A DNA stretch of 64,000 nucleotides. Source: Cornus controversa. Lineage: Eukaryota; Streptophyta; Magnoliopsida; Cornales; Cornaceae. Positions 34,042 to 63,173 of the stretch are shown here, piece after piece. The stretch lies in the NCBI GenBank assembly GCA_026545225.1, contig CM048845.1, forward strand, positions 32,106,501 to 32,170,500. The letters run 5' to 3'. The notes under the pieces were generated by a model, which was not told where the DNA came from, ran no database searches, and saw only the letters and a program-made list of their open reading frames with translations. The position numbers and the translations under genes are program-made. Position 1 is the stretch's first letter. Each line of letters starts with the position of its first letter.

Positions 34042-35250
34042 CTACTCGAGGGCGGGTGGTGGTGGTGGTGGCTCGGTGGGAGTAGAGGTGGAGGTGGAAG
34101 CTCGTCCGGCAAGCAGGAACTGCAGGTCCTGCCGGAAGGCACGGAACTCGTCTAAAATAGCCCTCTGACCCTGTGCCAGAGATGAAATGTCCGTCCGAAT
34201 GCTTGCCAGCTGACTCTGCATCACCTGGACATGCTCATCAAAACCCTGCTGGAGCCGCTCTACGTCAGCCGCCAGGCAGGAGTAGCCTGTCGCTAGGAAG
34301 TCATGCCGCTCTGCAGCAATATCCATCTCCTCATCATCGGACCCATCCCCTGCAGGCTCTCCCTTATCCATCTCCACCGGGGCATCCATATCTACATCGT
34401 TTGGTGGATCACCCTGGTGGTCCTGTTGTTCTAAGTGTCGCTTCACCCGCTCCCACTGAGTAGATGTGAAGCGGATGGGCGGTGCCAACTGAACGTCAGT
34501 ATCACTGACCGGTATACTGGCACGGCTCAGAAAAGCGGCGACAAGGAAAGGAAAGGGAAACCGCCAACTCGCTGCTCGCCGCATCCTCTTGTTGATGAGG
34601 CCGTCCCAGACCTTGAACATCAGCCCCCATACCAGTGACGGGACAGAAAAGCACGTGCCCGTGTGGAAAGCATAGAGGCAACGGAGGAGGTCGCCCCTGC
34701 GCTCTGCCATGTGCTGCAGAGGACACGCGTTCTTGATGAGAACGGTGTCCAGGAACCATAATCTGCTCGGGCACATCAATTTGGACGTGCAATTGTGACT
34801 GGGCATGGTAAATGCCCCGCCACACATGTCCATCACGATGGAAAACAGTGTCGAGTCTGCTGGAAGTGCGGCCCTGTAAAGCGGTTGACCGTCCTGATCA
34901 ACCATATCTGGCGGCTGTTGGTGAGGGATGCCGAGCATCTGCTCAATCTGGCTCGGCGTAATCATAATCGTCATGATGCCCACGACCGTCTCCAATGTGT
35001 CCGGCGCTATGCAGGAGTAGGTCATGCGCTCGTAGAAGACCTGCACTAAGCGCTTGTGTGCCACATTAGTGGGAGGCACACACAATCGGTCGAGGCGACG
35101 CCTCCTGAGCTCAGCGACAGTCCACGTGCTGTCGGGACACCTCTCGAACTCTCTCAGGTCAAATGTCTACTCCGGGTGAAACTGCCGAGAACGGAAGGCT
35201 CGCCTGGGCACGTCTCGCACAGAACCGGGGGCATTCTTCACCCTCGCCAT
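34042..35250 (-). pseudogene. Athila ORF2 of element B, one stop
   Basis: From ATG 35250 (MARVKNAPGSVRDVP) to the stop at 34042 there are 402 codons in a single frame, broken only by TAG at 35167-35169. Order: basic N-terminus; a helical domain of the 'putative plant transposon protein' kind (DRLCVPPTNVAHKRLVQVFY, ITPSQIEQMLGIP, LWFLDTVLIKNACPL, LYAFHTGTCFSVPSLVWG); an acidic stretch (EEMDIAAERHD); a probable coiled coil (VERLQQGFDEHVQVMQSQLA); and a Thr/Pro-rich tail ending PPPPPPALE. I see no signal peptide, membrane segment or catalytic motif. It is clearly richer in GC than the surrounding DNA. Such ORFs follow pol in Athila elements and their function is not known. Confidence 0.7.
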
Positions 35251-35910
35251 GATCTCGGAACAATCTGCACTTTATTCCAAAAATTACGTAAATAAAAATA
35301 AAATGAAAGGAATACTAAACTAAGAATAAAAATAAAAGAATAAAAATGAAAATGAGGTCTTAGTCGATGGTGCTGACATGAATTAAAAAAATTCGCTCTC
35401 AAAGAAGCAGTGTAAGCGGATGCAACTGAAACAAAGGTGCCACGGTTACAAACCGTACAGAAAGCATTTGAAATAGAGAGAATGAATAACTTACCCCTAC
35501 ATGAATTCCTACCCCCCGAAACCCGCAAAATCTCATTACGAATATCGCAAATGCACCCATCCAACCCAACATCATCTGTCTATGTTTATTACGCTGTAAA
35601 ACTATCAAAAATAGCGAGAAAGTACGCAAAATGTAGCCATGCATCACTTACCTCAAGGTGAAGATGATGCCCGGCACAAACAGAAGAAGACCCACTCGCA
35701 ACCGCGAAGAGAAGAGCATGCGAGTGCTAGTGGCGATCTCGGACTATGTCGAACGGCGGTGGATGATCGAGGATGGTAGATCAGGTGCACGATAGTGCTC
35801 GGAGAAAGCTTTGGATCGCTCGGAGAAGAGAATAAGTCGGATGGTCTTTTGAAATGAGAGGGAAGGCCAACGGTTTAAATACTAATTCGGCTCACGTGCA
35901 GGAATCGCGT

Positions 35911-36277
35911 GCATCTCGATTGATCGAGATGTGCATCTCAATCAATCGAGATTTCGATTGATCAAAATCCCACTTCGATCAATCGAGATCAGCTTCGCTC
36001 AATCGAGATCTGCTTCGATGAATCGAGATTTTTCCTTCGATCAATCGAGACTTTACTTCGATTAATCGAGAATTTACTTCGATCAATCGAAATCCCATTT
36101 CGATTAATCAAAATTTCAATCGATCGAGGACCTATCGAAGTGCTATCGAAGAATACTACCTCTCGGGACTTTGGATTTGGCAAACTCTCTGCAATATCTC
36201 GATCAATCGAGACTGAAATCTCGATCAATCGAAATCTCGATTGATCGAGATCTTGGCTTCGATCAATTGAGATGCTC
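35911..36277 (-). repeat. TCGATCAATCGA motif cluster, pol-ORF2 spacer of B
   Basis: More than a dozen exact or slightly mutated copies of the 12-bp core TCGATCAATCGA or its inverse TCGATTGATCGA, often extended to ATCTCGATTGATCGAGAT, at about 20-30-bp spacing. The same motif fills 31939-32060 and 40697-40775 in B's LTRs and the matching places in A. The frame MSISIDRSQDLDQSRF... is a by-product of the repeat. Confidence 0.85.
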
Positions 36278-36444
36278 AAAAACAGCCAGCTTAAGTTCTG
36301 CTTTCATGGACTTGGATCTTTGGGACTTAGAAACTAAATTGCTTAGATATAAAATGTAACTTGGATTAAAGGGACATCATGGAAGCATGATAGCTACCAT
36401 GGCTACGCCACCTTACACGTCTATGGCATGACGTTCGAATCGGC

Positions 36445-39288
36445 TCACGAGTCAAAATATACGGGATCCGTCAAAGTGACGACATCCACGTATTCGGTGG
36501 TAACTTGGTCATCCACGCACATTTTTAAGTGCTGCCCGTTTACTTTGAACAACGATCCGTCTTTCAAGTCCTTCAATTCCACCGCTCCGTGGGGAGCGAC
36601 GGAATTAACCAACGGAGGAAAGGGTTCTCTAGGAACTCTCCAATTAGGCAAATCCATGACAGTAGTGACATCGAGCACTGAGTTGACTTCACATATGGAT
36701 TGCTCAATGTCAAAATCATTATAGTTGAAATGATTTAAGCATGCCTCTAGAGGATCCTTAGAATGAATAGAATGAAGTGCTTCTTGAATAAGGTCTTCCA
36801 CTACATCGACACAAAAGCACTCACTTTCATCTTCAGATGTGTGGTGGGAAGCATTGAAGATGTTCAAGCGGACTTTCATATTCCCGAAAGAGATGTCCAT
36901 CACTCCGGTACGGCAATTAACGCAAGTGTTTGCCGTGGCCAAAAATGGACGACCTAGAATGATAGGAATATGTCGATTTGGATTTTGAACTGGTTTCGTG
37001 TCAAGGACTATGAAGTCCACCGAAAAGTAGAATTTGTCCACTTGAATGATTACATCCTCAATTATGCCACGTGGTTGCTTCACCGAGCGGTCGGCAAGTT
37101 GCAACACAACTGTGGTATGCTTAAGTTCCCCCAAACCTAGTTGTTGGTAAACTGAGAATGGAAGCAAATTGACACTAGCCCCTAAATCAAGAAGTGCCTT
37201 TTCAAAAGATTGATTTTCGATGGTGCACGAAATGGTCGGAGCACCACCCGAATCTTTGAATTTAGGAGGGGCTTGGTGTTAGAAAACGGAGCTTATGTGC
37301 TCAGTTAGGAGGACTTTCTTAGGAACATTATTCCTAGATTTACGCTTTTGAGTGCACAAGTTCTTCAAGAATTTAGCATAGGAGGGAATTTGTCGAATAG
37401 CATCAAGGAGAGGGAGATTGATATTTACTTGTTTGAAGATCTCCATCATGTCTTGGATTTTCTCTCCTTGCTTCCCAAAATGAGAAGGTTCCTTCAATCT
37501 TTGAGGGAAAGGAACCGGAGGTTCAAAAGAAGTGTCAAGATTTGGAATTGATGACGACACAACTTCACTTGCCTTTCCTTTTGGATTTAATGGGATGTTA
37601 TGCACATTTGGATTTAACGGAAACAATTTTGGATTTAATTAGAATTCTTTTGGATTTTTGGGTTGCTCTTGGGATTCCTTTCTCTCTTCCTCCCCTACTT
37701 TGGAATTGATGATTTTACGACTCCTTAAGGTGGTGATTGATTGAACTTGCTCCGGAGGAGCATTACAAGATGAAGATGATGGATCTTTAATTATATGAAC
37801 ACCCTTAGGATTAGCCACCGGTTGACTCGGCAACTTACCTTCCTCCCTTCTATTTAGGGCATTGGCTAGTTGCCCGATTTGAGCTTCTAACCTAGCCATA
37901 GATTGAGCATTAGCTTCAAGCTTAGAGATTGATTGAGAGTGAGTTTGCAATAAGCGGGTATTAGCCTCAAGATTGCTTATCACTCTTTCTTCAAAGCCTT
38001 GGCTTCTCGGAGGAGGTGATGGTTGTTGGTAATTGGATCTTTGATGGTAAGGTTGAGGATTTGGCCTATATTGAGGCTGTTGAGATTGGGAATTGAAAGA
38101 ATTTTGCCCTTAAAAAGAGGGACTTGATTCTTGAGGTTTCCATGAAAAAGCCGGATGATTCTTATAACCAGGATTGTACGTATTTGAATATGGATCATTC
38201 ATTTGTTTAGAGTACAAGGCATTCGCTTGCTCTTGAGCATAATCGGGAGATTGCCCGACAATAGGACAATCTCGCACGAAATGTGAAGTACTATAGCAAA
38301 ACGAACATCCTTCCTGATTTTGAACAGGTTGGCTTGGAGTAGGCAGCCCATTTTTCATGATTAGGTCCATTTTTTAGGATAAGGCTTCTACTTGCATGGC
38401 AACCTCATCTAGCCGTGAAATTTCATGCACTCCTCTACAAGGTTGGGTGGCCTTCCCTTTCCTAGTAGAGGAGCGTTGAGCTGAATTGTTGCTTAGGGTT
38501 TGAAAAAGTTTTCATGCCTCATCGGGGCTTTTCAAAAGGTATCCACCTCCACATGCCGAGTCTATCATTTGTCTATGTTGCTCACTCACCCCATCGTAAA
38601 AACTTTGCACTAGCTGCCATTTTGGGACAGCATGATGCGGACAAGATTTAAGAAGATTTTTTAATCTCTCCCACGTCTCATGAAATTGTTCTTGATCAAT
38701 TTGGGTGAATTCGGTGATTGCTCTCCGAATATCACTCGTCTTTCCCATTGGGAAGTATATTTTTAAGAACTTTATTTGCATCTCCGCCCAAGAATGAATT
38801 AAGTTAGGTTCTAAAGAATTGAACCAACTTCTAGCTTTATCTTTTAGGGAGAAGGGAAACATACGCAGCTTTAGATCATCCTCCGTAAAGTGTGGTACAC
38901 GAATAGTGGAACACACAGAAAGGAAGTAATCTAAGTGTCGGTATGGATCCTCATTAGGGAGACCATGGAAGCTATTAAGAAGATTGATGGTGGAGGACTT
39001 TATTTCGAATTGATTTGCCGCTATATCCGGAAATTGAATACATGAAGGTACTTCAAATGTAGTCGAAAGGTAAAAGTCCATAGACAACTCTCCTTGAGGA
39101 GGTGGAGGTGGAGGTGGTTGTTCATGATTAAAAGGAGGTAGTCCGGGAGGTTGTCTCTCATTTGGGTCCATGTTTTCAGTCCTAGGCAATATAGGGTCCC
39201 TAGAGGTTCCTCTACGTTGTGTAAGTGTTCTTTCAAGTTCAATATTACACGGAAGCAAAGGAAGTGACAATGACCGTCTACCTAGCAT
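36445..39288 (-). pseudogene. gag-protease-integrase C-terminus fusion of element B
   Basis: A single frame of 948 codons including the stop, from ATG 39288 (MLGRRSLSLPLLPCN) to the stop at 36445, interrupted by five nonsense codons (near 38512, 38373, 38110, 37639 and 37279) but no frameshift. Domains: Pro-rich N-terminus; Athila gag core (ARSWFNSLEPN, CPHHAVPKWQLVQSFYDGVS); zinc knuckle CSFCYSTSHFVRDCP; protease active-site block LLDLGASVNLLPFSVYQQLG; IILGRPFLATANTCVNC; DPLEACLNHFNYNDFDIEQS. Near 36605 PREPFPPL joins directly to [19 protein letters not shown], the integrase end. RT, RNase H and most of integrase (about 2.8 kb in A) are deleted in frame. Each stop can be explained by a C-to-T or G-to-A change relative to A. 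Confidence 0.8.
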
Positions 39289-39552
39289 GCATTAATAGTA
39301 GAACAACACTTCAATACACAAAATAAACCATAATATATACAAAGAAAAATGAATGAACTCAAACCCACTAATTTTAGACCTTATACTCACAAAGGGTTCC
39401 AACTTCAATTCTTTTAGATGCCCGCTATGTGGTATACCTAAAATGAAGAAATTTGAGAAATAAGAACAAGATATATACAAAAAGAATGAAAGAATTTCTA
39501 GCCTAAGAATTAAACCACATTTAATCTTCCAATGGCGACAATTACACCGTAG
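39289..39552 (-). other. Leader between PBS and gag, element B
   Basis: Non-coding leader of about 260 bases between primer binding site and gag ATG; the corresponding leader in A is 62889-63149. It presumably holds the packaging signal. No start codon of note was seen. Confidence 0.4.
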
Positions 39553-39570
39553 TCCCCGGCAACGGCGCCA
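39553..39570 (-). other. tRNA-Asp primer binding site, element B
   Basis: The plus strand carries TCCCCGGCAACGGCGCCA, the 3' end of tRNA-Asp; the element's sense strand therefore reads TGGCGCCGTTGCCGGGGA, the standard Athila PBS. It lies six bases from the LTR edge. Confidence 0.9.
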
Positions 39571-39576
39571 AAATTT

Positions 39577-40961
39577 TGATGTGGCTAAACTCGGATTATA
39601 TTGTAAGCTTAATTTTGCCCTTTTTATCAAAATATAATTTAACCACTCGCAAGAGCACGAATCTTGGTAGATACGGTTCTATATAGAGGGTATCGATCCC
39701 ACGAGGACTAGTTGCAATTGTCTTAAAGAATGATTAATTGCACTTTAATCCTAAAAACAAGGTTTTGAGTTTTTGTTTATAAAACTATTCCATGAATGTA
39801 ATGACAATAAAATTAAAGAGTTTAAAGTTGGGAGAGAGAACTAGGGTTAGTTTTCACCACTAGCCATTCACATGTTCATAATTGTAGCAAGCATGGGATT
39901 CATAAATTAAATGCCTAACAATGTCATTAGGCTTGTGACCTCAATGACATATCAAAAGATCAATGTGTTTGTCCACCTATCATAATCCATCTTCAATAAG
40001 CATAGCTCTTCAACCTAACTAACTATCTAATTACCCTACTCTCTAAGTGAACCTACATGCATCCAAACTACCTTATCTTGGCATGGTTTATACAAACAAA
40101 CACAACACATTCATTTAAACACCATTATCTAGCCATCATTTGCACTTCTTGTGGAATATGCAAATGTTGTGCACTCAAATGACAAAATCTACTCTAAGAC
40201 AAGAATAAACTCAACATCAAATGAATATATAGAAGAAATGTATTAGTGTACATGATCACTAGGCTAAATAATCAACATTTAATTACAAATCCCCAAGTGC
40301 TACAAAAAGGAACAAGTTTACATGGCTAGGGGCTTCAACCACACCCTAGTAGAAGAGTTAGTTGCTCATGGTTGCCTTGCACTCTTCCATTGATGAAGGA
40401 GATGAAGCTTCTTGGTCTGGTTCAGCTTCTCCTCTTCCTCTCCCGAAGGTCTCTCCTTGGATAATATGATGTGTATTGAGAGATATATGAGATATGTGAC
40501 TTTTTGGTGCTTTAAGGCTTCCTTTTTCAACCTTGGGGCCCACCATATATATATATATATCAATATATATATCCATTATATCAAGAAGGTCCCCAAGGGT
40601 CTTGTTCAAGTCAGATAATCCCCCTAAGTCGTGCAAAAAGGGAGATTTTGTTGCAAGTGGGAGAGCAGGTGAGCAAGTGGGCAAGTGGCTTCTGCAGAAT
40701 CTCGATCAATCGAGATTGGATCTTGATCAATCGAGATCTCGATTGATCGAGATCAACATCTCGATTGATCGAGATGCCTTTGGCTGCATTTCTGATTTTT
40801 GTTCTTCAGCTGCAAATAGCCTCAAACTTTGCTCCTTTCACTACAAGACCTGCAATACCTCAAAAATACAAAAATACCGTAAACATATCTTGGTAATCAT
40901 AAAAATGGAACTAACATATGCAATAAAGAGGGTTCAAATGCATAGAATTGAACACTTATCA
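39577..40961 (-). repeat. 5' LTR of element B
   Basis: Matches 30822-32243 with few substitutions. The main difference is fewer TCGATCAATCGA copies (40697-40775), consistent with a contraction inside the motif array. The edge at 40961 is followed by ACTTG (40962-40966), the TSD partner. Confidence 0.9.
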
Positions 40962-40966
40962 ACTTG

Positions 40967-41250
40967 AAAATTTAAGATGATTAACCTGGATTTTATGTTG
41001 TTGATGATAATCATCAAGTGTAATTTCTTGTAATAGAATCACCAAATTGAAAAATTTAGAATTCTGGTTGATGTAGGAGTCAATGGAATCACCAAGTCTT
41101 CGAAAGCTCAAGTGTATGCATGTAGCTTGAAGAGAGCATTATAAAAATTTGGATAACCCTTTTTTATAGATGGGCGACCGATCCCCCTCAAGGCTAGGCG
41201 ATCTATCGCCCAGCTAATGCCTCTACCCAAAATAATTATGGTGGGGCGAT
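40967..41250 (-). other. Fragment of element C's post-pol spacer
   Basis: Host-element sequence between the insertions B and D. Its right part (41167-41250) holds motifs such as GGGCGACCGATCCCC, GGCGATCTATCGCCC and GGGGCGAT, which continue beyond D at 48233 (GCGATCGATCCTCC, GGGGCGATCAATCC). It ends with the D target copy GCGAT (41246-41250). Confidence 0.55.
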
Positions 41251-41258
41251 CGCCATTT

Positions 41259-42932
41259 TGTTCGACGTGCAAAACGTGATAAAATAATATGGAATAATGT
41301 CGTCGTTGTTTTACACCTCGACAAAAAAAGAATTTATAAAACCCTACAAATACTCTACTAAAATTAGTAAAGTGGTGAGTAGGGGTCGAACCCACAGAGA
41401 CTGCGTTGGTTTCGTTGTTAAGCTATCAAGATCTCTTCTAATTTAATTGAAAAAGAATTTATTTTGTTTTTAATTCTAAGGTGCTGAAATTAAATGAAAT
41501 GAAATACAAACATAAATAAATGATAGATAAAATTCAAGAGAGAGAAGTCTAGGGTCTTAACTTCACCACTAGCATCATACCATTGTCGATTGAAATTACT
41601 TTTGGGAAAATTCTATAATATGCATAAATCAGATTCATGGAACGATGAACATACAATTAAGGTCTAAGCAATAACCCATCTTCGGTTGGCACGAATCTTC
41701 TACCTAAACTAGGGTGTAGCACGACTCGTCTTTCCTAGGCATGGCCTATCAAAGTCCTTGTCTCATACACACATGTTCACAATGAAATCGTCAAGAGGAT
41801 ATATACAAACACTCACTAAGCTACAACCCATCTTCGGTTGGCACGAATCGTCTACCTAAACTAGGGTGTAGCACGACTCGTCTTCCCTAGGCATGAACTG
41901 TCAAAGTTATATGTTCATACATGCAATGAAAACTTGTTGTATAATTATCATTCATTTTTAATCTCTCATGGGAATGATTTGAGTTCAATCAAGATAAAAT
42001 ACCATCTAAGACAAGACAACATTAAATCAAGAATGATTATAAACATTTAAACAACCATAAATGCATATCTATGCAATTGTCACTTATTACACAAATGATA
42101 CAAAATAGTCCTCAAAATTATACAACTATATACATAAAAAGAATAATCCCCAAATATAACCCAATCAACAATGATACTTAGCTAGGGCTTCGTTAAACCC
42201 CTAGGATGAAGTTAGCTCCTCATGGCAGTTGTTGAAGCCTCTCTTTTCTTTCTGTCAATCGTCACGAATCGCCTCCGTCTTTTCTCTCTGCTCTCCCCCC
42301 TCCAGAATACCCTAGTTTTCTTCGTTTCATCGTTTTTACTTTGCGAAACCAAACCAACGGGACACCTAGCCTTCCCAAAGTGGCAAGTGCGCATAAGAAA
42401 ATGGCACTTGCTCCTCACAAAGTGGCATTTGCGCCCAAAAAGTGGCAGCTGCGCAAATAGGGCATAAAGTTGATGAAAACGTCCGTTTTAGGAAATTTTC
42501 GTGAAATATGAAATTGTGCAGAATTGAATTTCCTTCAACCCACGCGGAGTTTGGGTCGTTTTGACAATCGTGTACGGAGTTATGGTCTGAATACCAACAC
42601 GGGTCCAGGACTTTTTAGGCCTGAATTGGCCCAATCTTCAATGCGAATGGGCCCGTGCTCCTTTCCTTCATTTACATTTATTTGCAGCCCATTTCTTCAG
42701 TCCATTTAGTTTGGATCTTCAAGATAAAAATATCTCTCATGGGTCAAGCTTCAGTGATAACTAAATGAGTACCATTTGTAGCCCGATTTCACCATTATTA
42801 ATCAGAATTATCCTTCATCACCTGAAATTATAAAAAGATTAAAATTATTAATAAAAACATTAAAGAAATATTACTAAGACACTAATTCATATAATTTAGG
42901 GATACTGAATATGCAATATTCATTACTTATCA
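41259..42932 (-). repeat. Left LTR of element D (minus sense)
   Basis: Plus-strand edges TGTTCGACGT and ATTACTTATCA; followed on the right by the polypurine tract CACCCCCAAACTT (42933-42945). Landmarks: GGTGAGTAGGGGTCGAACCC near 41372. A duplicated block ACCCATCTTCGGTTGGCACGA occurs near 41666 and 41827. A four-unit 21-bp repeat around GTGGCANNTGCGC lies at 42377-42460. Confidence 0.85.
42377..42460 (-). repeat. 21-bp tandem repeat in D's LTR
   Basis: Four units, each starting AAAGTGGCA or AAAATGGCA, with TGGCA at 42381, 42402, 42423 and 42443, i.e. spacing 21, 21 and 20 bp. It is mirrored at 47032-47115 in the right LTR. Confidence 0.75.
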
Positions 42933-43445
42933 CACCCCCAAACTTACAAATTGCTAGTCTCTTAGCAATACAAAACTAAAAATGAAGTAAAATACTAAAC
43001 TATTTCCTCTTTCGTGGGAGATCCGATTGCATTTAGCATATGCAACAAGCCTTTTAAACCCCTAGGTTACCCCTAGTGGACGAGTAAAGTCTCGTGAGGG
43101 TTTCCAGAGATGTTACCCACAAACATGCCAAAATTTATGTTTCAAACATTAATCAAGGCGAAGACTACAAAATACAGTTAAAAGACTTGCATTCAAAAAT
43201 ACTTTCAAATCCCTAAATCCCATAATTCAAAACAATGGTTCTCACCCAAAATTTACATCAATCACAACTCAAAGAAACTAACTCTAGCCCCCTCATGAAA
43301 AGTGAACTAGCATTCATCAATGTGGTTTAACCCGGCCTTGAGTGAGCAATTATAAGTCCCTTCAATTTATTGGATCCCCTTATTGAATGTATCACTCAAA
43401 ACATGAATACATGCAAAAAATTTTTTTTTTTTTTTTTTTTTGATT

Positions 43446-43760
43446 TAGTTGTGCAATGCCCAGGTTTATTAGGCTTTCGAATTGATCCATGTAGCAAGTT
43501 TTCAGCCTGTGACTCCCAAACCAAATGGCTTTAGGGCACCAGGTTTCAAGATACCTCGAGGAACCTAATAACTCGAATCAAAACGGCCACAAACCATAGA
43601 CTAACCAATAACACAATGCCTAGGTTTATTAGGCTTTCGAATTGGTCCATGTAGCGAGCTTTCAGCCTGTGACTCCCAAACCAAATGGCTTTAGGGCACC
43701 AGGTTTCAAGATACCTCGAGGGACCTAATAACTCGAACCAAAACGGCCACAAACCATAAG
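43446..43760 (-). repeat. About 160-bp tandem duplication in D's 3' interior
   Basis: The block from GCAATGCCCAGGTTTATTAGG through CAAAACGGCCACAAACCATA is repeated once from about 43614 with a few substitutions. The pair is mirrored at 45740-46050 in the right arm. The frame beginning MWPFWFELLGPSRY over it appears in both arms but has no domain. Confidence 0.75.
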
Positions 43761-44164
43761 ATTATTATTTTTATTTTTATTTTTTATTTTTTTATTTTAT
43801 TATATATATATTTTTTAAGTATAGCATGTTTAAAATGTTTATTCTCAAGGGATACCGACTTATATTCAGCACACATAATTGATACTCAAAGCCAAGTACA
43901 AACCCCACTAACTCTACTAGTGTGCGTGTGAATTGTGAAAAGAACTAGAGTCAACCACTCCAAGTCATGTCAATGCAAATAACGACTTAAACCACTGCAT
44001 TCAAATCATAGTTTCTAGAAATTTTACACATACTCTACAATTGCAAGTCAAGAACCTACATAAAGTATTAAACTCTTGATTGGTGTTAAAACATCTAAAC
44101 TGAAAACAAAACAACCTAAAATAAATAAATAAATAAATAAATAAAACAAAAGTGTTCTTCCTTA

Positions 44165-44196
44165 CCCCCAAACTTGAATCACACATTGTCCTCAAT
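44165..44196 (-). other. Internal polypurine block of element D
   Basis: The sense strand reads CATTGAGGACAATGTG, then AAGTTTGGGGG, ending at 44165. This is the second purine block seen in all Athila copies here (33331 in B, 54143 in A). The inverted copy in the right arm begins exactly at the base after this tract. Confidence 0.6.
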
Positions 44197-44528
44197 GTGT
44201 AACAAAAATATAAAGCGTATGGTAAGTGATAGAACAATATTACCGTAGTGGTAGAATTGTAAAAATTTGGTAAAGCATTCACATGAATAAGGGTTGGCCA
44301 TCCCCCCAAACTTGGATGCAAGAACCTGTCATAAAAAACACAACTACACACCACGCATATTAAAAGGGAAAAAAAATAATAAAATAAATAAAAAGAATGC
44401 AACAAAATGAAAAACAAACACAAATAAAATTAAAACGAAGAAAAATCAACTCTAATAAAAGCAAAAATAAATAAAAATAAATGAAAAGAAAAACACACAC
44501 ATCCTAACTACTACTTTTGATGGAAGAT

Positions 44529-45041
44529 TCACCCTATACCACATCTCTTGAGAAGATCTAAAAGTGTCCCCCCTATTTTGTCCTCACTTTCTTGTGCCGG
44601 AATCCAAACAATTTTTAGGCACCTCTTATCTATATCAATGTGAGGTTTTAAGAAACATGAATCAATCGAATAAAATTCGACTAATTCAAGAAAACATGAC
44701 CCTTTAACTTGTTCTTGACTAATTTTCTCATTGATATCTAATTTGTCACTACCCAAGTCAAAAACAAAGGTAAAAGGTGGACTCTCATTAGGGCTTAAGT
44801 GATCACATTTAAGTTCTTCATGTAAAGTGTCGGAGTCCTGTATGAGTAATGACTCCATAATGGGGGCATGATCTAACTCAACTAGTTGTATTGATTCAAT
44901 ATTGGCCTTCCACGTTTGTGTGTCCATAAGAGGAACTGAATCCAATAAGGCATTTACCTCTTCACATGCAAACTCAGTATCAAAATCACAACCAAAATGA
45001 GCTAAACATGCTTTCAAAGGGTCTTCAAACTCAACCAGCAT
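44529..45041 (-). CDS. 170-codon Athila pol-linker ORF of element D
   Basis: An intact frame starting MLVEFEDPLKACLAHFGCDF and containing EEVNALLDSVPLMDTQTWKA. The first third aligns with the segment between protease and RT in other Athila copies (B: KDPLEACLNHFNYNDFDIEQ ... LDVTTVMDLPNWR). The rest is Asp/Glu/Leu-rich with no catalytic motif that I recognise. No gag, protease or RT is present in D. The PBS lies about 270 bases upstream, so this frame takes the place of gag. Whether it is translated is unknown. Confidence 0.45.
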   Translation of the reverse strand: MLVEFEDPLKACLAHFGCDFDTEFACEEVNALLDSVPLMDTQTWKANIESIQLVELDHAPIMESLLIQDSDTLHEELKCDHLSPNESPPFTFVFDLGSDKLDINEKISQEQVKGSCFLELVEFYSIDSCFLKPHIDIDKRCLKIVWIPAQESEDKIGGTLLDLLKRCGIG

Positions 45042-45314
45042 GTTTTCAAATAAAAGAGATAAACAAATTAAAATTAAATTAAAAATTTACAGCTAACCAT
45101 AAGTACAAAAATAACACAAGTGCATCAATTAAAATACAAAAACTCACAAGAGGTCCCAAAATTTCAGCTTCTTTCTTCCTGTGTAGTAGTTCCTGTGCCT
45201 AAATTTCAACACTCAAAACACCTAAAACAAATTAAAAACAGAATATATACAAGTCCTAAATTATAATTAAACTAGACTAAATCTTTAAACTTAACAACGC
45301 AATCATGATCGCAG

Positions 45315-45332
45315 TCCCCGGCAACGGCGCCA
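45315..45332 (-). other. tRNA-Asp primer binding site of element D
   Basis: Exact TCCCCGGCAACGGCGCCA on the plus strand. Three T follow, where a 5' LTR edge (TGTTCG) is expected; instead the inverted copy of the 3' interior starts (TAAGGAAGAAC). Confidence 0.9.
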
Positions 45333-45335
45333 TTT

Positions 45336-48232
45336 TAAGGAAGAACACTTTTGTTTTATTTATTTATTTATTTATTTATTTTAGGTTGTTTTGTTTTCAG
45401 TTTAGATGTTTTAACACCAATCAAGAGTTTAATACTTTATGTAGGTTCTTGACTTGCAATTGTAGAGTATGTGTAAAATTTCTAGAAACTATGATTTGAA
45501 TGCAGTGGTTTAAGTCGTTATTTGCATTGACATGACTTGGAGTGGTTGACTCTAGTTCTTTTCACAATTCACACGCACACTAGTAGAGTTAGTGGGGTTT
45601 GTACTTGGCTTTGAGTATCAATTATGTGTGCTGAATATAAGTCGGTATCCCTTGAGAATAAACATTTTAAACATGCTATACTTAAAAAATATATATATAA
45701 TAAAATAAAAAAATAAAAAATAAAAATAAAAATAATAATCTTATGGTTTGTGGCCGTTTTGGTTCGAGTTATTAGGTCCCTCGAGGTATCTTGAAACCTG
45801 GTGCCCTAAAGCCATTTGGTTTGGGAGTCATAGGCTGAAAGCTCGCTACATGGACCAATTCGAAAGCCTAATAAACCTAGGCATTGTGTTATTGGTTAGT
45901 CTATGGTTTGTGGCCGTTTTGATTCGAGTTATTAGGTTCCTCGAGGTATCTTGAAACCTGGTGCCCTAAAGCCATTTGGTTTGGGAGTCACAGGCTGAAA
46001 ACTTGCTACATGGATCAATTCGAAAGCCTAATAAACCTGGGCATTGCACAACTAAATCAAAAAAAAAAAAAATTTTGCATGTATTCATGTTTTGAGTGAT
46101 ACATTCAATAAGGGGATCCAATAAATTGAAGGGACTTATAATTGCTCACTCAAGGCCGGGTTAAACCACATTGATGAATGCTAGTTCACTTTTCATGAGG
46201 GGGCTAGAGTTAGTTTCTTTGAGTTGTGATTGATGTAAATTTTGGGTGAGAACCATTGTTTTGAATTATGGGATTTAGGGATTTGAAAGTATTTTTGAAT
46301 GCAAGTCTTTTAACTGTATTTTGTAGTCTTCGCCTTGATTAATGTTTGAAACATAAATTTTGGCATGTTTGTGGGTAACATCTCTGGAAACCCTCACGAG
46401 ACTTTACTCGTCCACTAGGGGTAACCTAGGGGTTTAAAAGGCTTGTTGCATATGCTAAATGCAATCGGATCTCCCACGAAAGAGGAAATAGTTTAGTATT
46501 TTACTTCATTTTTAGTTTTGTATTGCTAAGAGACTAGCAATTTGTAAGTTTGGGGGTGTGATAAGTAATGAATATTGCATATTCAGTATCCCTAAATTAT
46601 ATGAATTAGTGTCTTAGTAATATTTCTTTAATGTTTTTATTAATAATTTTAATCTTTTTATAATTTCAGGTGATGAAGGATAATTCTGATTAATAATGGT
46701 GAAATCGGGCTACAAATGGTACTCATTTAGTTATCACTGAAGCTTGACCCATGAGAGATATTTTTATCTTGAAGATCCAAACTAAATGGACTGAAGAAAT
46801 GGGCTGCAAATAAATGTAAATGAAGGAAAGGAGCACGGGCCCATTCGCATTGAAGATTGGGCCAATTCAGGCCTAAAAAGTCCTGGACCCGTGTTGGTAT
46901 TCAGACCATAACTCCGTACACGATTGTCAAAACGACCCAAACTCCGCGTGGGTTGAAGGAAATTCAATTCTGCACAATTTCATATTTCACGAAAATTTCC
47001 TAAAACGGACGTTTTCATCAACTTTCTGCCCTATTTGCGCAGCTGCCACTTTTTGGGCGCAAATGCCACTTTGTGAGGAGCAAGTGCCATTTTCTTATGC
47101 GCACTTGCCACTTTGGGAAGGCTAGGTGTCCCGTTGGTTTGGTTTCGCAAAGTAAAAACGATGAAACGAAGAAAACTAGGGTATTCTGGAGGGGGGAGAG
47201 CAGAGAGAAAAGACGGAGGCGATTCGTGACGATTGACAGAAAGAAAAGAGAGGCTTCAACAACTGCCATGAGGAGCTAACTTCATCCTAGGGGTTTAACG
47301 AAGCCCTAGCTAAGTATCATTGTTGATTGGGTTATATTTGGGGATTATTCTTTTTATGTATATAGTTGTATAATTTTGAGGACTATTTTGTATCATTTGT
47401 GTAATAAGTGACAATTGCATAGATATGCATTTATGGTTGTTTAAATGTTTATAATCATTCTTGATTTAATGTTGTCTTGTCTTAGATGGTATTTTATCTT
47501 GATTGAACTCAAATCATTCCCATGAGAGATTAAAAATGAATGATAATTATACAACAAGTTTTCATTGCATGTATGAACATATAACTTTGACAGTTCATGC
47601 CTAGGGAAGACGAGTCGTGCTACACCCTAGTTTAGGTAGACGATTCGTGCCAACCGAAGATGGGTTGTAGCTTAGTGAGTGTTTGTATATATCCTCTTGA
47701 CGATTTCATTGTGAACATGTGTGTATGAGACAAGGACTTTGATAGGCCATGCCTAGGAAAGACGAGTCGTGCTACACCCTAGTTTAGGTAGAAGATTCGT
47801 GCCAACCGAAGATGGGTTATTGCTTAGACCTTAATTGTATGTTCATCGTTCCATGAATCTGATTTATGCATATTATAGAATTTTCCCAAAAGTAATTTCA
47901 ATCGACAATGGTATGATGCTAGTGGTGAAGTTAAGACCCTAGACTTCTCTCTCTTGAATTTTATCTATCATTTATTTATGTTTGTATTTCATTTCATTTA
48001 ATTTCAGCACCTTAGAATTAAAAACAAAATAAATTCTTTTTCAATTAAATTAGAAGAGATCTTGATAGCTTAACAACGAAACCAACGCAGTCTCTGTGGG
48101 TTCGACCCCTACTCACCACTTTACTAATTTTAGTAGAGTATTTGTAGGGTTTTATAAATTCTTTTTTTGTCGAGGTGTAAAACAACGACGACATTATTCC
48201 ATATTATTTTATCACGTTTTGCACGTCGAACA
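45336..48232 (+). repeat. Right arm of element D (inverted copy)
   Basis: Reverse complement of 41259-44164. It has 3' interior (45336-46545), polypurine tract AAGTTTGGGGGTG (46546-46558) and a 1,674-bp LTR in plus sense (46559-48232), TGATAAGTAATG...GTCGAACA. Differences seen by eye include the homopolymer at 46059-46072 and single changes near 45830 and 47029. Open frames here mirror those of the left arm and are not genes. Confidence 0.9.
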
Positions 48233-48237
48233 GCGAT

Positions 48238-48594: not shown

Positions 48595-50640
48595 TCAAGT
48601 AAGATAGACGGGATCCGTCAAGTCGACGAACTCTACATCTCTAGTTGGCACAACTCCTTCTACACAATTTTTCAATGTTTGCCCATTGAGTGATTTCTTG
48701 AATACCCTAAACAATTGCTTATTCGGGAATGAGTCATGAATAGGAAATGCATCGAACATGGAATCTGGCACAATTAGGGACAAATGGTTTGCCACTACAT
48801 TCTTTGTCCCCTTTTTATCTTTTATCTCCAAATCAAACTCTTGCAACAATAGAATCCATCGAATAAGGCACGGCTTGGTTTCCTTCTTTGCTAACAAGTG
48901 CCTTAATGGTGCATGATTAGAGTAGATAACCACCTTGGACCCCAACAGATAGGAATGGAACTTATCCAAGGCAAATACGACAGCTAGAAGCTCTTTCTCT
49001 ATTGTGATATAACTAAGTTGAGCATCCAAAAGAGTCTTACTAGCGTAGTAGATGACATAAGGGCGCTTCTCTTCTCTTTATCCCAGTACTGCTCCTACTG
49101 CATAGTCAGAAACATCACACATAATTTCGAAAGGCAGTGCCCATTTCAGAGATTGAATGATTGGTGCAAATGATAGTAAAGACCGAAGCTTCTCGAAGGC
49201 TTGCAAACAATCATCAGCAAAGGAAAAGGTAACATCCTTAGATAATAGATAACACAAGGGTTGAGCAATATTACTGAAGTCTTTGATGAATCTTCTATAG
49301 AACCCGGCATGGCCTAAGAAAGAACGGACTTGCCTCACTATAGTAGGGGGAGGCAGAGTAGAAATTAGGTCGATCTTCGCTTTGTCAACTTCAATACCCC
49401 TCTTTAAAACAACATGTCCTAACACAATACCCTCTTTCACCATGAAATGTCTCTTCTCCCACCTAAGGATCAAATTTCGGTCTCGTTATCTCTGAAGCGC
49501 AAGTGATAAATTCTTCAAACAATCTTCAAAGGATAATCCAAAAATAGAGAAATCATCCATGAAAACCTCCCAGAACTTTTCCATCATGTCAGAGAATATT
49601 GCCATCGTACACCTTTGAGATGTTGCTGGAGCATTACATAACCTAAAGGGCATGCGGCGATAAACAAAAGTACCAAAAGGGAATGTAAAAGTGGTCTTCT
49701 CTTGATCTTCTGGGTCCATAGCCACTTGATTATAACCAGAATAGCCATCAAGAAAGAAATAATAGCTCTAACCTACCAACCTCTCAAGAATTTGGCCAAT
49801 GAATGGAAAAGGAAAGTGATCCTTCCGAGTCATGAAGTTAAATTTTCTATAGTCAATGCAAACATGCCAACCTATGGCAGCACATTGTGGAATGAACTCC
49901 CCCATAGAATTGGGAATAATAGTAAAACCGGACTTCTTAGGAACAACTTGAATTAGGCTCACCCATGTGCTATCAGAAATTGGATAGATGATATCTGCAT
50001 CAAGCAACTTGATCGCCTCTTTCATCACCACCTCTTTCATATTGGGATTCAATCGCCTCTAAGATTCTTTAAATGGCTTGCTTCATTATTTTAGATGAAT
50101 TTTATGCATGCAAATAGAAGGATCAATGCCATTGAGGTCTGCTACACTCCACCCAATTGCTTCATGATGTTGGTACAAGACCTCCACTAAACTTGCTTGT
50201 TGAGTGTCTGTCAAATCAAAGGCAATGATAACTGGAAGAGTTTTGTTGGCCCCCAAAAACACATATTTTAACTTATCAAGCAAGGGCTTCAGTTCTAGTT
50301 ATGGAGGGGACTATATTGAAAGCACTAGAGGAGTGCTAGAGAGGAGAGGCAGTGGCTCGACTGGAATTCTCCAAGTTAGAGTATTATGAATGATTGCAAC
50401 TTCCAACATAGGATTTTCCTCTTCACCTAGTTCCTCTGTATTGAATGTCTCATAGTCTAAGAGGGACTTGCAAACCTCCAAGGAGTTGTGAGATAAAGAA
50501 GATGACATAAATTTCTCCACACAAACTTCAATAACATCTAGGCATAAAACATCACTCTGATCTGGAGGGTGTTGGATAGTATTGAAAATATTAAGCTTAA
50601 CCTTAATGTTGCCAAATGAAATATCCATGATCCTCGACCT
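48595..50640 (-). pseudogene. RT-RNase H of element C, integrase deleted
   Basis: One frame with several stops, no frameshift seen. Order: linker (50628-50311); IDPSICMHKIHL; RT with VCIDYRKFNFMTRKDHFPFPF, FTFPFGTFVYRRMPFRLCNAP and the catalytic VFMDDFSIFG (near 49545); RNase H with [35 protein letters not shown] and [14 protein letters not shown]. After [10 protein letters not shown] the frame passes straight into [13 protein letters not shown] and ends DLTDPVYLT, the integrase terminus. The integrase body is therefore deleted in frame. RT copies element RNA into cDNA; this copy is broken by stops near 50284, 50053, 49726, 49474 and 49030. Confidence 0.7.
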
Positions 50641-51621
50641 ACATTTTATGCAAGCATCAACACTAGCTAAAAAAGGTCAACCAAGGCTGACTGGAATGTG
50701 CCTCCTTGGATTATGTACCAGCTCAGTGTCAAGCATAATAAAATCAACTGGAAAGTAGAACTTGTCCACTCTAATGAGCACATTTTCGATAATCCCTCAT
50801 GGTTGCTTTGTTGATCTATATGCAAATTGTAGTACCACTGGGGTAGGCTTCAATTCTCCTAAACCCGACTATAGATAGACTGAAAAAGGCAGCAAGTTCA
50901 CATTTGTACCCAAATCAAGAAGAGCTTTATCAACATGGTGCTCCCCAATGATGCATGAGATAGTTAGAGCACCAAGATCTTTGTACTTGGGAGGAGTGCA
51001 ATACTGAATTATGGAGCTCACTTATTGTGGCAGCATTACCTTCTTTGGCACATGACTTTTTGAACACTTTTTCTGAGTGCACAAGTCTTTCAAAAAATTT
51101 GCATAAGGCAGAATCTGTTTGATGGCATCAAAGAGTGGTAGATTAATCTTCCCTTATCGAAAAACCTCTATCATGTCCTACAACTTGTCCCCTTACTTCC
51201 CCAACTTAAATGCTTGTAGAAAACGTTGTGGGAAGGGAGCCTTAGGCTCATATAAATTTTCAGCACTTGGACTTGCGATCACTTTCTCTTCTTCTTTATT
51301 TTTCTCCCCCACCTTGTTATCAATTATTTTCCCATTTCAAAGTGGTGATAGCTTAAACTTGCTCATGGTGTGGGTTACTTGTAAAAGTATGCATCCCTCT
51401 AGGATTGACAACAGGTTGGCTTGGTAGCTTCCCCTCCTCTCTTTTACTCAAAGCATTAGCAAGTTGTCCAGACTGACATTCCAGTTTGGCGATGGACTGC
51501 AAGTGAGAGTGAACCAATTGAATAGTAGCTTGCACTCTTTCTGCAGTAACTTACATTATTTCTACAATAAACTCAAGCCTTCTAAACTTTGCTAGGGCAA
51601 GTGCCAACTAATCTTCAAGAG
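50641..51621 (-). pseudogene. gag end and protease of element C
   Basis: Minus sense from the A insertion: gag linker LECQSGQLANALSKREEGKLP (51353-51535); the conserved block on probable capsid C-terminal side; and protease pieces around 50930-50650, including the plus-strand shadows of LGASVN-like and GxPFLA-like motifs. Stops and at least one frame change break it. The gag start is displaced beyond element A. The TSD copy AAGAG at 51617-51621 marks A's insertion. Confidence 0.6.
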
Positions 51622-53043
51622 TGATGTGGTCGGAACTAAATTATATTGTAAGCTTAATTTTTCCCTTTTTATCAAAATATAATTTAACCACTCGCAAGAG
51701 CACGAATCTTTGTAGATAAGGTTCTATATAGAGGGTATCGATCCCACGAGGACTAGTCGCAATTGTCTTAAAGGAAGATTAATTCTACTTTAATTCGAAA
51801 AAACAGATTTTTGAATTTATGTTTAGAAACTTTTGCATGAATGAAATGACAAGAAAAGTAAAGAGTTTAAAGTTGGGAGAGAGAACTAGGGTTGGTTTCC
51901 ACCACTAGCCATTCACATGTTCATAAGTGTAGCAAGCATGGGATTCATTAATTAAATGCCTAACAATGTCATTAGGCTTGTGACCTCAATGACATATCAA
52001 AAGATCAATGTGTGTGCTAACCTATCATAATCCATCTTCAACAAGCATAGCTCTTCAACCTAACTAACTACCTAATTACTCTACTCTCTAAGTGAACACT
52101 ACATGCATCCAAACTACCTTGTCTTGGCATGGTCTATACAAACTAACATCACACATTCATTTAAACACCATTATCTAGCCATCATTTGCACTTCTTGTGG
52201 AATATGCAAATGTTGTGCATTCAAGTGACAAAATCTACTTTAAGACAAGAATAAATTCCAAATCAAATGAATATATATAAGAGATCTATTTGTGTACATA
52301 ATCACTAGGCTAAATAATCAACATTTAATTACAAATCCCAAGAGCTACAAAGATGAACAAGTTTACATGGCTAGGGGTTGAAACCAACACCCTAGTAGAA
52401 GAGTTAGTTGCTCATGGTTGCCTTGCACCCTTCCATTGATGAAGAGAATGAAGATTCTTGGTCTGGTTCAGCTTTTCCTCTTCCTCTCCCGAAGGTCTCT
52501 CTCTAGTATCTTGATGTGTGTTGAGAGATATGAGATATGTGTGGCTTTTGGTGCTTTTTGGCTCCTTTTTCTCCTTTGGGGCCCACCATATATATATATA
52601 TATATCATTATATATATCTCTTGTATCAAGAAGGCCCCCAAAAGTCTTGTTCAAGTCAGACAATCCCCCTAAGTCGTGCAAAAAGGGGGATTTTGTTGCA
52701 AGTGGGAGAGCAGGTGAGCAAATGGCCAAGTGGGCTCTGCAGCATCTCGATTGATCGAGATTGAATCTCGATTGATCGAGATTTCGATCAATCGAAATGA
52801 GATCTCGATCAATCGAGATTTCGATTAATCGAGATCAACATCTCGATTGATCGAGATGCCTTGGGCTGCATTTTCTGATTTCTACTCTTGACTGCAGAAA
52901 GCTTCCAACTTTGCTCCATTTACTCCAATACCTGCAAAACATCAAAAATACAAAAATACCGTAAACATATCTCGGTAAACGCAAAAATGGAACTAACGTA
53001 TGTAAGAAAAAGGGTTCAAATGCATAGAATTGAACACTTATCA
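51622..53043 (-). repeat. 3' LTR of element A (1,422 bp)
   Basis: Plus-strand edges TGATGTGGTC and GAACACTTATCA. It aligns with 63174-64000 for the visible part with very few differences (for example AGATCTATTTG against AGATGTATTTG near 52280/63835). It carries the TCGATCAATCGA motif cluster at 52743-52858. Confidence 0.9.
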
Positions 53044-54843
53044 CACCCCCAAACTTACATATTGCTAGTCCCTTAGCAATACATTATTACAAAAATGAAA
53101 TCAACTATCTTATACAAAAGTTTAATCATGCTCAGTCATCAACTAGATAAAGGGCGATCATCCGTTCATTTCACATTTGGCAAATGCAACAAGTATTACA
53201 GAACTATGTGGTCCTTAGCAAAAATGGACTTTCACAAGCTATAAATGAACGACAGTCCCCACATAATGGCCAGCCCGAACAAATATAACAATTCCACCCC
53301 CAAAATCCTCTTTGAAAAGTGAACATGCATTCCAACATGTGGCTTTTGTCATATTTGGAGAAGAAAACGAACAAATCTATTTTTGAGAGAAAAACTCATT
53401 GAAAATGCTCGACACGGCTGTTCATTATCACAAAACATTCATGATTGCTCATGTGAAGATGATCGTGCAATGCTTAGCTCTTTTTGCTTTCTTGCAAGCC
53501 CATGTAGCGGCGTTGGGCCAATGACTCCCAAACCAATTGATTTTAGGGCATTAGGTGAAGAAGCACCCCTCGGACTTAATGACCGAGCTTACAAGGCGAT
53601 GAGGGTAAGCAAGCCACCCGCTTATTATTGCTCAACCTTACACACTTTTACACGAATATTCCCTGCTTTGAGGCATAGAAATCCGGTTTATTGAGTGAGA
53701 AGGCTTATTGCAAATTTTTCTCTTTTTTTTTTTTGTTTTACAACAACCGGAAGAACTTATTCTTTAAGTTGTTCAGATAAAAACAGAAATTTTCAAAAAT
53801 TCTCCCTCAGACTTATACCCCACAATTTAAAATGCATGTGTGCAAATTTGTGCGGTTAAGGACAAATTTAGGGCAAGAATTGTACGTGCTCGAATTTAGA
53901 CAAAAATGTAGACCGTTCTAGCCTACTATAAAGCTTGCAAAAGTGCGGGTATTTACAATGTTAAAGTTCTTAACTACCTGCTGCATTTACCTCGGACATT
54001 TAATCGAATGACTTCCTTTAAAAAGCAAGACATCATGGCAAGCATGCAAAAATATCAAGAAGAAAAAAAATTGCTCTACAATGACATTCAAAATAATGAC
54101 TGAACATTGCATGCGTATGCAAGTGGTATAGCATACCGCACCCCCAAACTTATATGCAACATTGTCCTCAATGTTTGGACAAAAAGAACAAGGAAAGAAG
54201 TTACCGGGATGGCAGAATGTGAGAAAAATGGTATTCCACAGCAGCGGTCATCTTGTAAATAAGGAAAACCTACATAGAACACCAACTGGATACCACGAGC
54301 ATTAAAAGGAACAAAAAGTAGATAAATAGAACATAATGAAATAATTATGCACAAACTGACAATGCCAATATCACTGTATATCTAAGGGTCTGAACTGGTG
54401 TTTCCCAATTGTGTAAGAGGCCTATGCGACAAGATATTGACTATCCAGGCACGCTAACGTATAGCATGCAAAGGGGCTGCCTTTCTTTATTACCGCCATA
54501 CTGTGTTGAAGCAATCTCAACAGTACTGGGAATTGAAACCAGGCGGTAATAAATGAAAATCATCAACTGAATCGCATATAACAATTAGACAAGTGGTACT
54601 ACATACATAGTCAAAGTATAGAGAACAGATATATTGACAGAAAGCAAAAATAAAGACAGTAAAGATAACACATGGTATAAAAGAAAATAAAAATGTATTC
54701 CATATAGATGAAAATGAGTTTGAGTACAAAGTGTACATGTAGGTGGAATACTCAGAAAGAAACTAAACATGGCCAACATGGCCTATCAAAAATAAAGAAA
54801 GAAAAATACAGAAAGTAAAGCATAAAAGATGAATAAAATGCAG
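53044..54843 (-). other. 3' interior and polypurine tracts of element A
   Basis: Polypurine tract at 53044-53056 (CACCCCCAAACTT on plus). Second purine block near 54141-54172. It aligns along its length with 32244-34041 of B. No coding domain. Confidence 0.65.
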
Positions 54844-56067
54844 CTACTCGAGGGGTGGTGGTGGTGGTGGTGGCTCGGTGGGAGTAGAAGTGGAGGTGGA
54901 GGCTCGACTAGCGAACAGGAACTGCAGGTCCTGCCGGAAGGCTCGGAACTCGTCTAAGATCGCTCTCTGACCCTGTGCCAGAGAAGAAATGTCCGTTCGG
55001 ATGCCTGCCAGCTGACTCTGCGTCACCTGGACGTGCTCGTCAAAACCCTGCTGGAGCCGCTCTACGTCAGCCGCCAGGCAGGAATAGCCCGTCGCTAAGA
55101 TATCATGCCGCTCTGTAGCGACATCCATCTCCTCCTCCTCCATCTCCTCATCATCGGACTCACCTTCTGTTGGCTCGCCCTCCTCCACCTCCACCGGGGC
55201 ATCCATATCTACATCGTCTGGTGGATCGCCCTGGTGGTCCTGCCGCTCTAAGTGTCACCTCACCCGCTCCCACTGAGTAGATGTGAAGCGGGTGGGCGGT
55301 GCCAACTGGATGTCAGTCTGACTGACCGGTATACTGGCACTGCTGAGAAAAGCGGCGATCAGGAAAGGGAAGGGAAGCCGCCAACTAGCTGCTCGCCTCA
55401 TCCTCTTGTTGACGAGGCCGTCCCAGACCTTGAACATCTGCCCCCAGATCAGCGACGGGACAGAAAACCAAGTGCCCGTGTGGAAAGCATAGAGGCAACG
55501 GAGAAGGTCGCCCCAGCGCTCTGCCACGTGCTGCAGCGGACACGCGTTCTTGATGAGAACGGTGTCCAGGAACCAGAGTCAGCTCGGGCACATCAATTTG
55601 GACGTGCAGTTGTGACTGGGCGTGGTAAACGCCCTGCCACACATGTCCATCACGATCGAGAACAGCGTCGTGTCGGCTGGGAGTGCGGCACTGTAAAGTG
55701 GCTGACCGTCCGGGCCAACCATGTCCGGTGGCTGCTGGTGAGGGATGTCGAGCATATGCGCAATCCGGCTCGGTGTAATCGTAATCATGACGGTGCCCAC
55801 CACCGTCTGTAGTGTATCTGGCGCAGTGCAGGAGTAGGTCATGTGCTCGTAAAAGACCTGCACGAGGCGCTCGTGTGCCACGTCGGTGGGAGGCACACAT
55901 AGCCGGTCGAGGCGACACCTCCTGAGCTCGGCAACCATCCACGCGGTGTCGGGACGCCTCTCGAACTTGGCTAAGTCAAAAATCTGCTCTGGGTGGAACC
56001 TCCGAGACCGGAAGGCTCGCCCGGGCACGTCGCGAACAGAACCGGCGGCGTTCTTCACCCTCGCCAT
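54844..56067 (-). pseudogene. Athila ORF2 of element A, two stops
   Basis: 407 codons in one frame from ATG 56067 (MARVKNAAGSVRDVP) to the stop at 54844, broken by TGA at 55579-55581 and 55255-55257, both where B has an Arg codon or equivalent. Same order as in B: basic N-terminus, PPTDVAHERLVQVFYEHMTY, ITPSRIAHMLDIPHQ, LYAFHTGTWFSVPSLIWGQM, an acidic stretch longer than B's (EEMEEEEMDVATERHD), a predicted coiled coil, and the tail PPPPPPPLE. GC-rich relative to its surroundings. No signal peptide or membrane helix seen, so I do not call it an envelope protein. Confidence 0.7.
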
Positions 56068-56722
56068 AGCCTCGGAACAGTCTGCACTTGATTCCAAAAA
56101 TTACGTAAATAAAAGATAAATAAAAAGAAAGCTAAACTACGATTAAACTAAAAGAATAGAAATAAAAATGAAGTCCTAGTCCATGGTACTGACAAGAATG
56201 CAAAAAAAACTAAAAGAGGCAATGTGAACGGATGCAATCGAAACGAAGGTGTCGCGGTTACACACCATACACTAAGCATTTTAAACAAAAAGAATGCCAA
56301 ATCTCACTCCTACATGACTTCCTACCCCCCGAAACCCACAACATCTCATTACAGATATTGCAATCACATCCATCCACCCTAACATCATCTAACTATGTTT
56401 ATTACGCCGTAAAACTATCAAAAATGGTGAGAGAGTATGCAAAATGTAGCCATGCATCACTTACCTCGAGAGGAAGAAGATGAACGGCTCAACCGAAGAA
56501 GATCCACTCGCAACCGCGAAGAGGAGATCGTGCAAGTGCTAGCGGCGGCTTCGAACTACGTCGGATGGCGGCGGATGATCGGGAAGGGTAGATCGAGTGC
56601 TCGGGAGTGCTTGGAGAAGGCTTGGATCGCACGGAGGGAGAGAAGAATTTGGATGGTCTTTTAAAATGGGAGGGAAGCCCAACGGTTTAAATAGACTTTT
56701 GGCTCACGTGCAGGCCCCGCGT

Positions 56723-63149: not shown

Positions 63150-63167
63150 TCCCCGGCAACGGCGCCA
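63150..63167 (-). other. tRNA-Asp primer binding site, element A
   Basis: Exact TCCCCGGCAACGGCGCCA on the plus strand, six bases from the LTR edge at 63174. Confidence 0.9.
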
Positions 63168-63173
63168 AAATTT

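Follow-up and report, generated by a model that had tools for sequence, protein, structure and literature searches.

The stretch of Cornus controversa contig CM048845.1 analysed here (64,000 nucleotides, referred to as the window; all coordinates are positions within this 64-kb window) contains at 41259-48232 a 7-kb inverted repeat. Its two long terminal repeats (LTRs) are inverted, unlike the direct LTRs of a normal insertion, and the palindrome is therefore a derivative of an LTR element rather than a normal insertion. We read it, with about an even chance of being right, as the outcome of an abortive reverse transcription of a non-autonomous LTR retrotransposon, probably of Ty3/gypsy type, which would have become integrated as a hairpin complementary DNA (cDNA) via one U5 terminus. 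All four edges of the palindrome, i.e. the outer two and both sides of the central joint, coincide with landmarks of reverse transcription. The joint links the minus-strand 3' end at the primer binding site (PBS) to the first base past an internal polypurine tract; this feature, which defines the centre, was absent from an initial annotation of the DNA. The features of the palindrome and its edges are the following.

41246-41250, no strand: GCGAT, left copy of a putative target-site duplication; the word shared by the flanks, GCGATCG, is at 41246-41252
41251-41258, plus strand: CGCCATTT, made up of the PBS-complementary CGCCA and the 3-nt spacer TTT; putative minus-strand cDNA start
41259-42932, minus strand: left LTR, 1,674 bp, TGATAAGT...GTCGAACA
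42933-44164, minus strand: internal 3' sequence of the left arm, mirrored part
42935-42945, minus strand: left-arm copy of the usual (3') polypurine tract, AAGTTTGGGGG
44165-45335, minus strand: single-copy centre, 1,171 nt, the proposed hairpin loop, leader side of the element
44165-44175, minus strand: internal polypurine tract AAGTTTGGGGG, its last G adjoining the arm end
44303-44313, minus strand: third exact copy of the polypurine tract within the palindrome centre, not used by the joint
44529-45086, minus strand: open frame, 185 codons from stop to stop
45315-45332, minus strand: PBS TGGCGCCGTTGCCGGGGA, exact 18 nt
45333-45335, minus strand: spacer between U5 and PBS (AAA on the minus strand), the last bases before the joint 45335/45336
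45336-46558, plus strand: internal 3' sequence of the right arm, starting with TAAGGAAG, the first bases past the internal polypurine tract
46546-46556, plus strand: usual (3') polypurine tract of the right arm
46559-48232, plus strand: right LTR, 1,674 bp, its CA end directly at the flank
48233-48237, no strand: right-hand GCGAT of the putative duplication, flush with the LTR end

Each arm (41259-44164, 2,906 nt, and 45336-48232, 2,897 nt) comprises an outward-facing LTR and an internal part of 1.2 kb in which a polypurine tract adjoins the LTR. Both LTRs run TGATAAGT...GTCGAACA with TG...CA bounds, and each is preceded in its own sense by AAGTTTGGGGG-TG. Two 1,674-bp LTRs in opposite orientation and a single central PBS had been reported in the initial annotation, and both were confirmed at the positions listed above. 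The BLAST identity of the arms is 99.6% with the indel included, and a palindrome with arms of 2.9 kb is far beyond chance. The near-identity of the arms, also noted earlier, was borne out by their alignment, but a 9-nt indel in an A/T tract (43419-43427) is not the sole difference, as had been stated: two substitutions (42465/47026 and 43669/45831) were found as well. Each arm also carries two 145-nt repeat units at 160-nt spacing which are 95-96% alike (43454-43758 and 45742-46046).

The right outer edge is clean, the CA of the LTR being followed directly by GCGAT (CA/GCGAT). At the left edge, the 8 nt of CGCCATTT separate GCGAT from the LTR; on the minus strand this edge reads LTR...CGAACA-AAATGGCG-ATCGC. 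As the centre (AAATGGCGCCGTTGCCGGGGA) shows, the spacer and PBS of this very element begin with AAATGGCG. Calculated from the base composition of the window, the chance of the 8-nt match at the left edge is 1.3e-5, and that of its first six letters is 3.7e-4. Judging from the complementarity to the PBS, CGCCATTT on the plus strand would represent the 3' end of the primer transfer RNA (tRNA), CGCCA, and the first three bases of the minus-strand cDNA, although its first two bases (CG) may belong to the flank instead. The primer was presumably an Asp-type tRNA; a bacterial-code search for tRNA genes in the window detected none. The outer edges resemble both strands of a single end processed by integrase, one with a recessed 3' CA and the other with a 5' overhang. 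The earlier description of U5 at both outer edges holds in that U5 sequence lies toward both of them, whereas the left end, which carries AAATGGCG, is not clean.

The reported GCGAT flanks are present on both sides, yet the left copy lies 8 nt off the LTR end, and what the flanks have in common is a 7-nt word (GCGATCG). The duplication could measure 5 bp, leaving CGCCATTT as the tail, or as much as 7 bp, in which case the tail is CCATTT. The duplication is suggestive rather than strong, because GATC-like words abound in the flanks: a word of the right flank is found in a 15-nt left stretch with a frequency of 0.017 for 5-mers, 0.0055 for 6-mers and 0.0026 for 7-mers (counted across every position of both 200-bp flanks, with the true pair left in). 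The similarity of one flank to the other was no better than that obtained by shuffling (score 25, the maximum of 200 shuffles also being 25). The length of 5 bp is the usual one for target-site duplications in plants (87.2%, n=12,909; available text of PMC6911290). If a 5-bp duplication and an 8-nt cDNA-derived tail are the true arrangement, the site before insertion would have read GTGGGGCGAT directly followed by CGATCCTCC.

The central joint reads ...CCCCGGCAACGGCGCCATTT/TAAGGAAGAACAC on the plus strand. Its left side is the normal end of a minus-strand cDNA at the PBS plus the 3-nt spacer (GGCGCCATTT), and on its right side the element runs in sense orientation from the exact 3' edge of the internal tract (AAGTTTGGGGG followed by TAAGG). 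The internal and the usual tract are identical 11-mers, and in the palindrome element the former lies 1,230 nt upstream of the latter. This 11-mer has three 3' edges in the 2,403-nt internal region (1033, 1171 and 2401, the last being that of the usual tract), and the joint is at 1171; the chance of a joint at such an edge is about 2 in 2,403 when the two edges besides the usual tract's are counted. The window contains 16 copies of AAGTTTGGGGG with at most one mismatch, nine of them exact, where 1.26 copies would be expected. Two further LTR elements of the window, here termed element 1 (30822-40961) and element 2 (51621-64000), also possess a second exact tract, 1,084 and 1,095 nt, respectively, upstream of the usual one. 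Moreover, GAGGACAATG stands before the internal tract, exact and at equal spacing, in the palindrome element and in both of these elements. The 30 nt preceding the internal tract of the palindrome element fold as a stem-loop, and none of 300 shuffled sequences was as stable; before the usual tract, the corresponding numbers of shuffles for five copies were 10, 21, 0, 9 and 4 of 300.

Read along the plus strand, the palindrome consists of the tRNA end, the spacer, the whole minus-strand cDNA from U5 to the PBS, the spacer again, and a plus strand which extends from the internal tract as far as U5. What follows, from the sequence of steps and the enzymes to the hairpin and how it was replicated, is our inference. 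A minus-strand cDNA would have been made from the tRNA primer to a 3' end just past the PBS, and a plus strand would have started at the internal tract, which is located 1.2 kb upstream of its usual counterpart, and been extended through the LTR to the end of U5. The second-strand transfer would then have failed, perhaps through tRNA residues left on the cDNA, and the 3' end of the minus strand would have been joined to the 5' end of the plus strand by end joining or by a homology-poor strand switch. This would give a hairpin whose loop is 1,171 nt long and which has a single U5 terminus. Integrase would have trimmed the 3' strand of this terminus and joined it (CA/GCGAT), while the 5' strand, with the spacer and primer-derived bases retained, would have been sealed to the other side of the target by host repair; replication would finally have converted the hairpin to a palindrome. 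This course would explain the unequal outer edges, because the terminus of the hairpin has a trimmed 3' strand and a 5' strand that keeps spacer and primer bases. The near-identity of the arms is in agreement with it, since a single copying event predicts just that.

The homology at the joint is at most 1 base, and the pairing predicted for the cDNA end is weak (-3.8 kcal/mol, about rank 2,660 of 4,041 overlapping 25-nt pieces, the best, -11.0, being elsewhere). Self-priming through good pairing at the joint is thus unsupported. In the predicted single-strand fold of 44130-45336, for which there was no shuffle control at that length, the 3' end of the cDNA pairs only locally. Because of the small homology and the weak predicted pairing, ligation or a homology-poor strand switch would be likelier than classical self-priming.

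Besides this poor pairing, several observations weigh against a hairpin cDNA started at the internal tract. The evidence on the palindrome comes from a single locus, and the landmark matches were spotted post hoc, though each of them is at the exact base. A working internal tract is something we infer. When one mismatch is allowed, GAGGACAATG is not enriched in the window (6 occurrences against 4.39 expected), and elements 1 and 2 fold differently from the palindrome element before the internal tract, with 21 of 300 shuffles as stable in each case; a conserved RNA structure at the internal tract is not supported since these folds differ. The similarity to a relative at 27.8-29.0 kb stops 14 nt short of the joint, which may lie near a module border of the family. 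Finally, a hairpin has one terminus, whereas a target-site duplication normally needs two joined ends; if GCGAT is truly a 5-bp duplication, a dimer of two cDNAs would be the simpler explanation.

Such a head-to-head dimer is the main rival, which we regard as possible rather than probable. Two cDNAs, e.g. from one particle, would have been joined, one ending with the PBS and spacer and the other at the start of the internal tract, and the resulting linear double-stranded palindrome with two U5 ends would have been integrated with one end processed and the other keeping PBS bases. The dimer accounts for the same joints, and it offers integrase two ends, which suits a 5-bp duplication such as the one seen in element 1 (ACTTG). 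It requires, however, that two unusual ends come together in a single event, and it offers only chance as the reason why one outer edge is CA and the other tRNA-tailed. The arm differences, two bases and one tract, are such as two templates might give. On the other hand, the C at 45831, in a CAG context, has changed to T, whereas C is retained in the remaining three repeat units, and this suits a later mutation better than two templates; the T in the right arm would suit a later deamination. The polarity of the other substitution and of the tract indel is not assignable, and the arm differences do not choose between the hairpin and the dimer.

A later rearrangement, by antisense nested insertion within the same family, by autointegration or by recombination between inverted copies, appears very unlikely. 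Nested elements fill the window, and an antisense nested insertion of the element EVD is on record in the accessible part of PMC11624286. Nesting and autointegration would, however, leave an LTR terminus at the inner joint, and the joint has none, for which reason both were rejected. Moreover, the window contains only two LTRs of the palindrome's family, and the arms are too similar for two old insertions. We consider an assembly or read artefact produced by fold-back of one element to be just as improbable. Near-perfect inverted repeats are generally known as a form of artefact, but a fold-back would mirror the sequence beside its turning point, whereas both arms end here at the LTR end and the flanks differ; the arms also differ at three places and the turning point is on landmarks of the element. 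The initial annotation's own reading, i.e. a double-ended palindromic cDNA with both U5 ends processed and joined by integrase and with GCGAT as the duplication, is hardly credible: the right edge (CA/GCGAT) agrees with the joining of an LTR end and GCGAT recurs on the left, a match which is unlikely but not very (0.017 for 5-mers), but 8 nt of U5/PBS sequence stand between the left LTR end and GCGAT, and since a normally processed end would not carry AAATGGCG, the left end has kept its unprocessed U5/PBS start and a clean two-ended insertion was rejected at that edge.

The source of the palindrome would be at best a non-autonomous element. The frame at 44529-45086 is the single one of at least 180 codons in the palindrome, and neither gag-pol coding nor a tyrosine recombinase was found in it, as none of the Pfam families matched it at E <= 0.001; the scan did not extend to smaller frames, neither for gag-pol domains nor for a broken recombinase gene. 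Nine of 35 candidate relatives of the protein encoded by this leader frame matched it at E <= 0.001, all of them partial (20-38% of the query) and unnamed. The PBS and polypurine tract are common to the palindrome and elements 1 and 2. The tract adjoins U3 in the palindrome. Because of the joint, the PBS no longer has an LTR beside it there; in elements 1 and 2, the same PBS core follows shortly after the CA of the LTRs. The assignment to the Ty3/gypsy type is suggested because element 2, with which the PBS and tract are shared, has gag, protease, reverse transcriptase, RNase H and integrase domains; a closer placement in an Athila-like lineage is our guess. The 3' sequence of the palindrome element is 74-75% similar to the relative at 27.8-29.0 kb. 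The expected U5/PBS junction was found in no stretch of the viral contigs and in none of the genome contigs searched, and 46049-48232 had no match among plasmids; these collections are non-plant and are silent on how rare the sequences are. At a substitution rate of 1.3e-8 per site and year, the divergence of the arms (2 in 2,897) corresponds to a rough age of some tens of thousands of years.

Among the other repeats of the window, element 1 lies on the minus strand; its two LTRs share 95.6% identity, and its 5-bp duplication ACTTG, at 30817-30821 and 40962-40966, was recognized by eye. Element 2 is a related LTR element which runs off the window; two pieces of its LTRs are 99.4% alike over 827 nt. 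The second internal AAGTTTGGGGG is located at 33330-33340 in element 1 and at 54141-54151 in element 2, on the minus strand in both, and is preceded by ACATTGAGGACAATGT. The palindrome lies next to an older degraded element, of which 48779-50163 is 70% like 58652-60036 of element 2, the stretch with its reverse transcriptase frame. Farther away, the segment 1109-12499 contains the direct repeats 1109-4087 and 7080-10031 (97.3%) and 4083-4369 and 12213-12499 (97.6%), and may be an element whose LTRs measure about 3.3 kb, with an interruption of the second one at 10031-12213. The segment 13587-13882 has an 88% match to its own reverse complement over 301 aligned positions.

Hairpin DNAs arising from the reverse transcription of cauliflower mosaic virus in plants were reportedly described by Covey and Turner in the 1980s; these fold-back molecules are said to start at the minus-strand primer end and to arise on failure of strand transfer. 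They are reportedly unintegrated viral DNA, whereas the palindrome is an integrated retrotransposon product with an integrase-type edge. Aberrant integrations of Rous sarcoma virus, in which U5 ends keeping tRNA-derived bases were irregularly joined, are likewise said to have been obtained in the Hughes laboratory; those were reportedly ordinary proviruses with no palindrome, unlike the present locus. The minus-strand strong-stop DNA of human immunodeficiency virus 1 (HIV-1) self-primes when transfer is impaired, as presented in the accessible text of PMC4668388. The likeness to the palindrome is that after a missed transfer the wrong strand serves for the extension or joining of a cDNA 3' end; in HIV-1, however, strong-stop DNA does so via the TAR stem, whereas the palindrome would involve a full minus strand up to the PBS and a joint of poor pairing. 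HIV-1 uses a central polypurine tract as well as the 3' one, and an internal tract is used by foamy virus (PMC4393142 and PMC5294762, parts available).

Inverted outer repeats are shared with DIRS-1, in which inverted LTRs are the normal form (PMC5633606, in part). DIRS-1 has a tyrosine recombinase, whereas the PBS, polypurine tract and 2.9-kb mirrored arms found here argue for a mistake made by an ordinary LTR element. Among plants, the closest example of inverted LTRs that we found is the antisense nested EVD insertion in Arabidopsis (PMC11624286, same part). It resembles the palindrome in having inverted LTRs of one family at one locus and in being a possible source of hairpin RNA; it results from two insertion events, whereas the palindrome would result from one, with reverse-transcription landmarks at the joint. 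The 'LTRs in opposite orientation' mentioned in the available portion of PMC2151762 refer to primers for polymerase chain reaction, and the 2025 Retand survey, so far as its text was accessible, mentions the polypurine tract once, in the Background (PMC11963269). An integrated two-U5 palindrome was not found in the accessible texts of the open-licence literature, which is not to claim its absence from print.

The palindromic copy is probably a dead end because both LTRs read outward and neither is able to transcribe the internal region with the PBS. Transcription from outside would yield a long hairpin RNA, and such RNA is a proposed trigger of LTR-element silencing (PMC11624286, same part). 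The locus looks like a frozen intermediate of reverse transcription, recording both the start and the stop of the minus strand. It suggests that the internal polypurine tract primes plus strands in elements of the palindrome's kind, and one U5 terminus may suffice for insertion. As a speculative and rather doubtful extension, the internal tract could be a working second plus-strand start which has been kept in the lineage and which, on failure of transfer, gives rise to hairpin cDNAs that integrase can insert via a single U5 terminus. If this is true, mirror-image insertions with one clean CA edge and one tRNA-tailed edge would be a recurrent and recognizable class in plant genomes. This edge signature is simple enough for a whole-genome search, which would make a test out of a single case.

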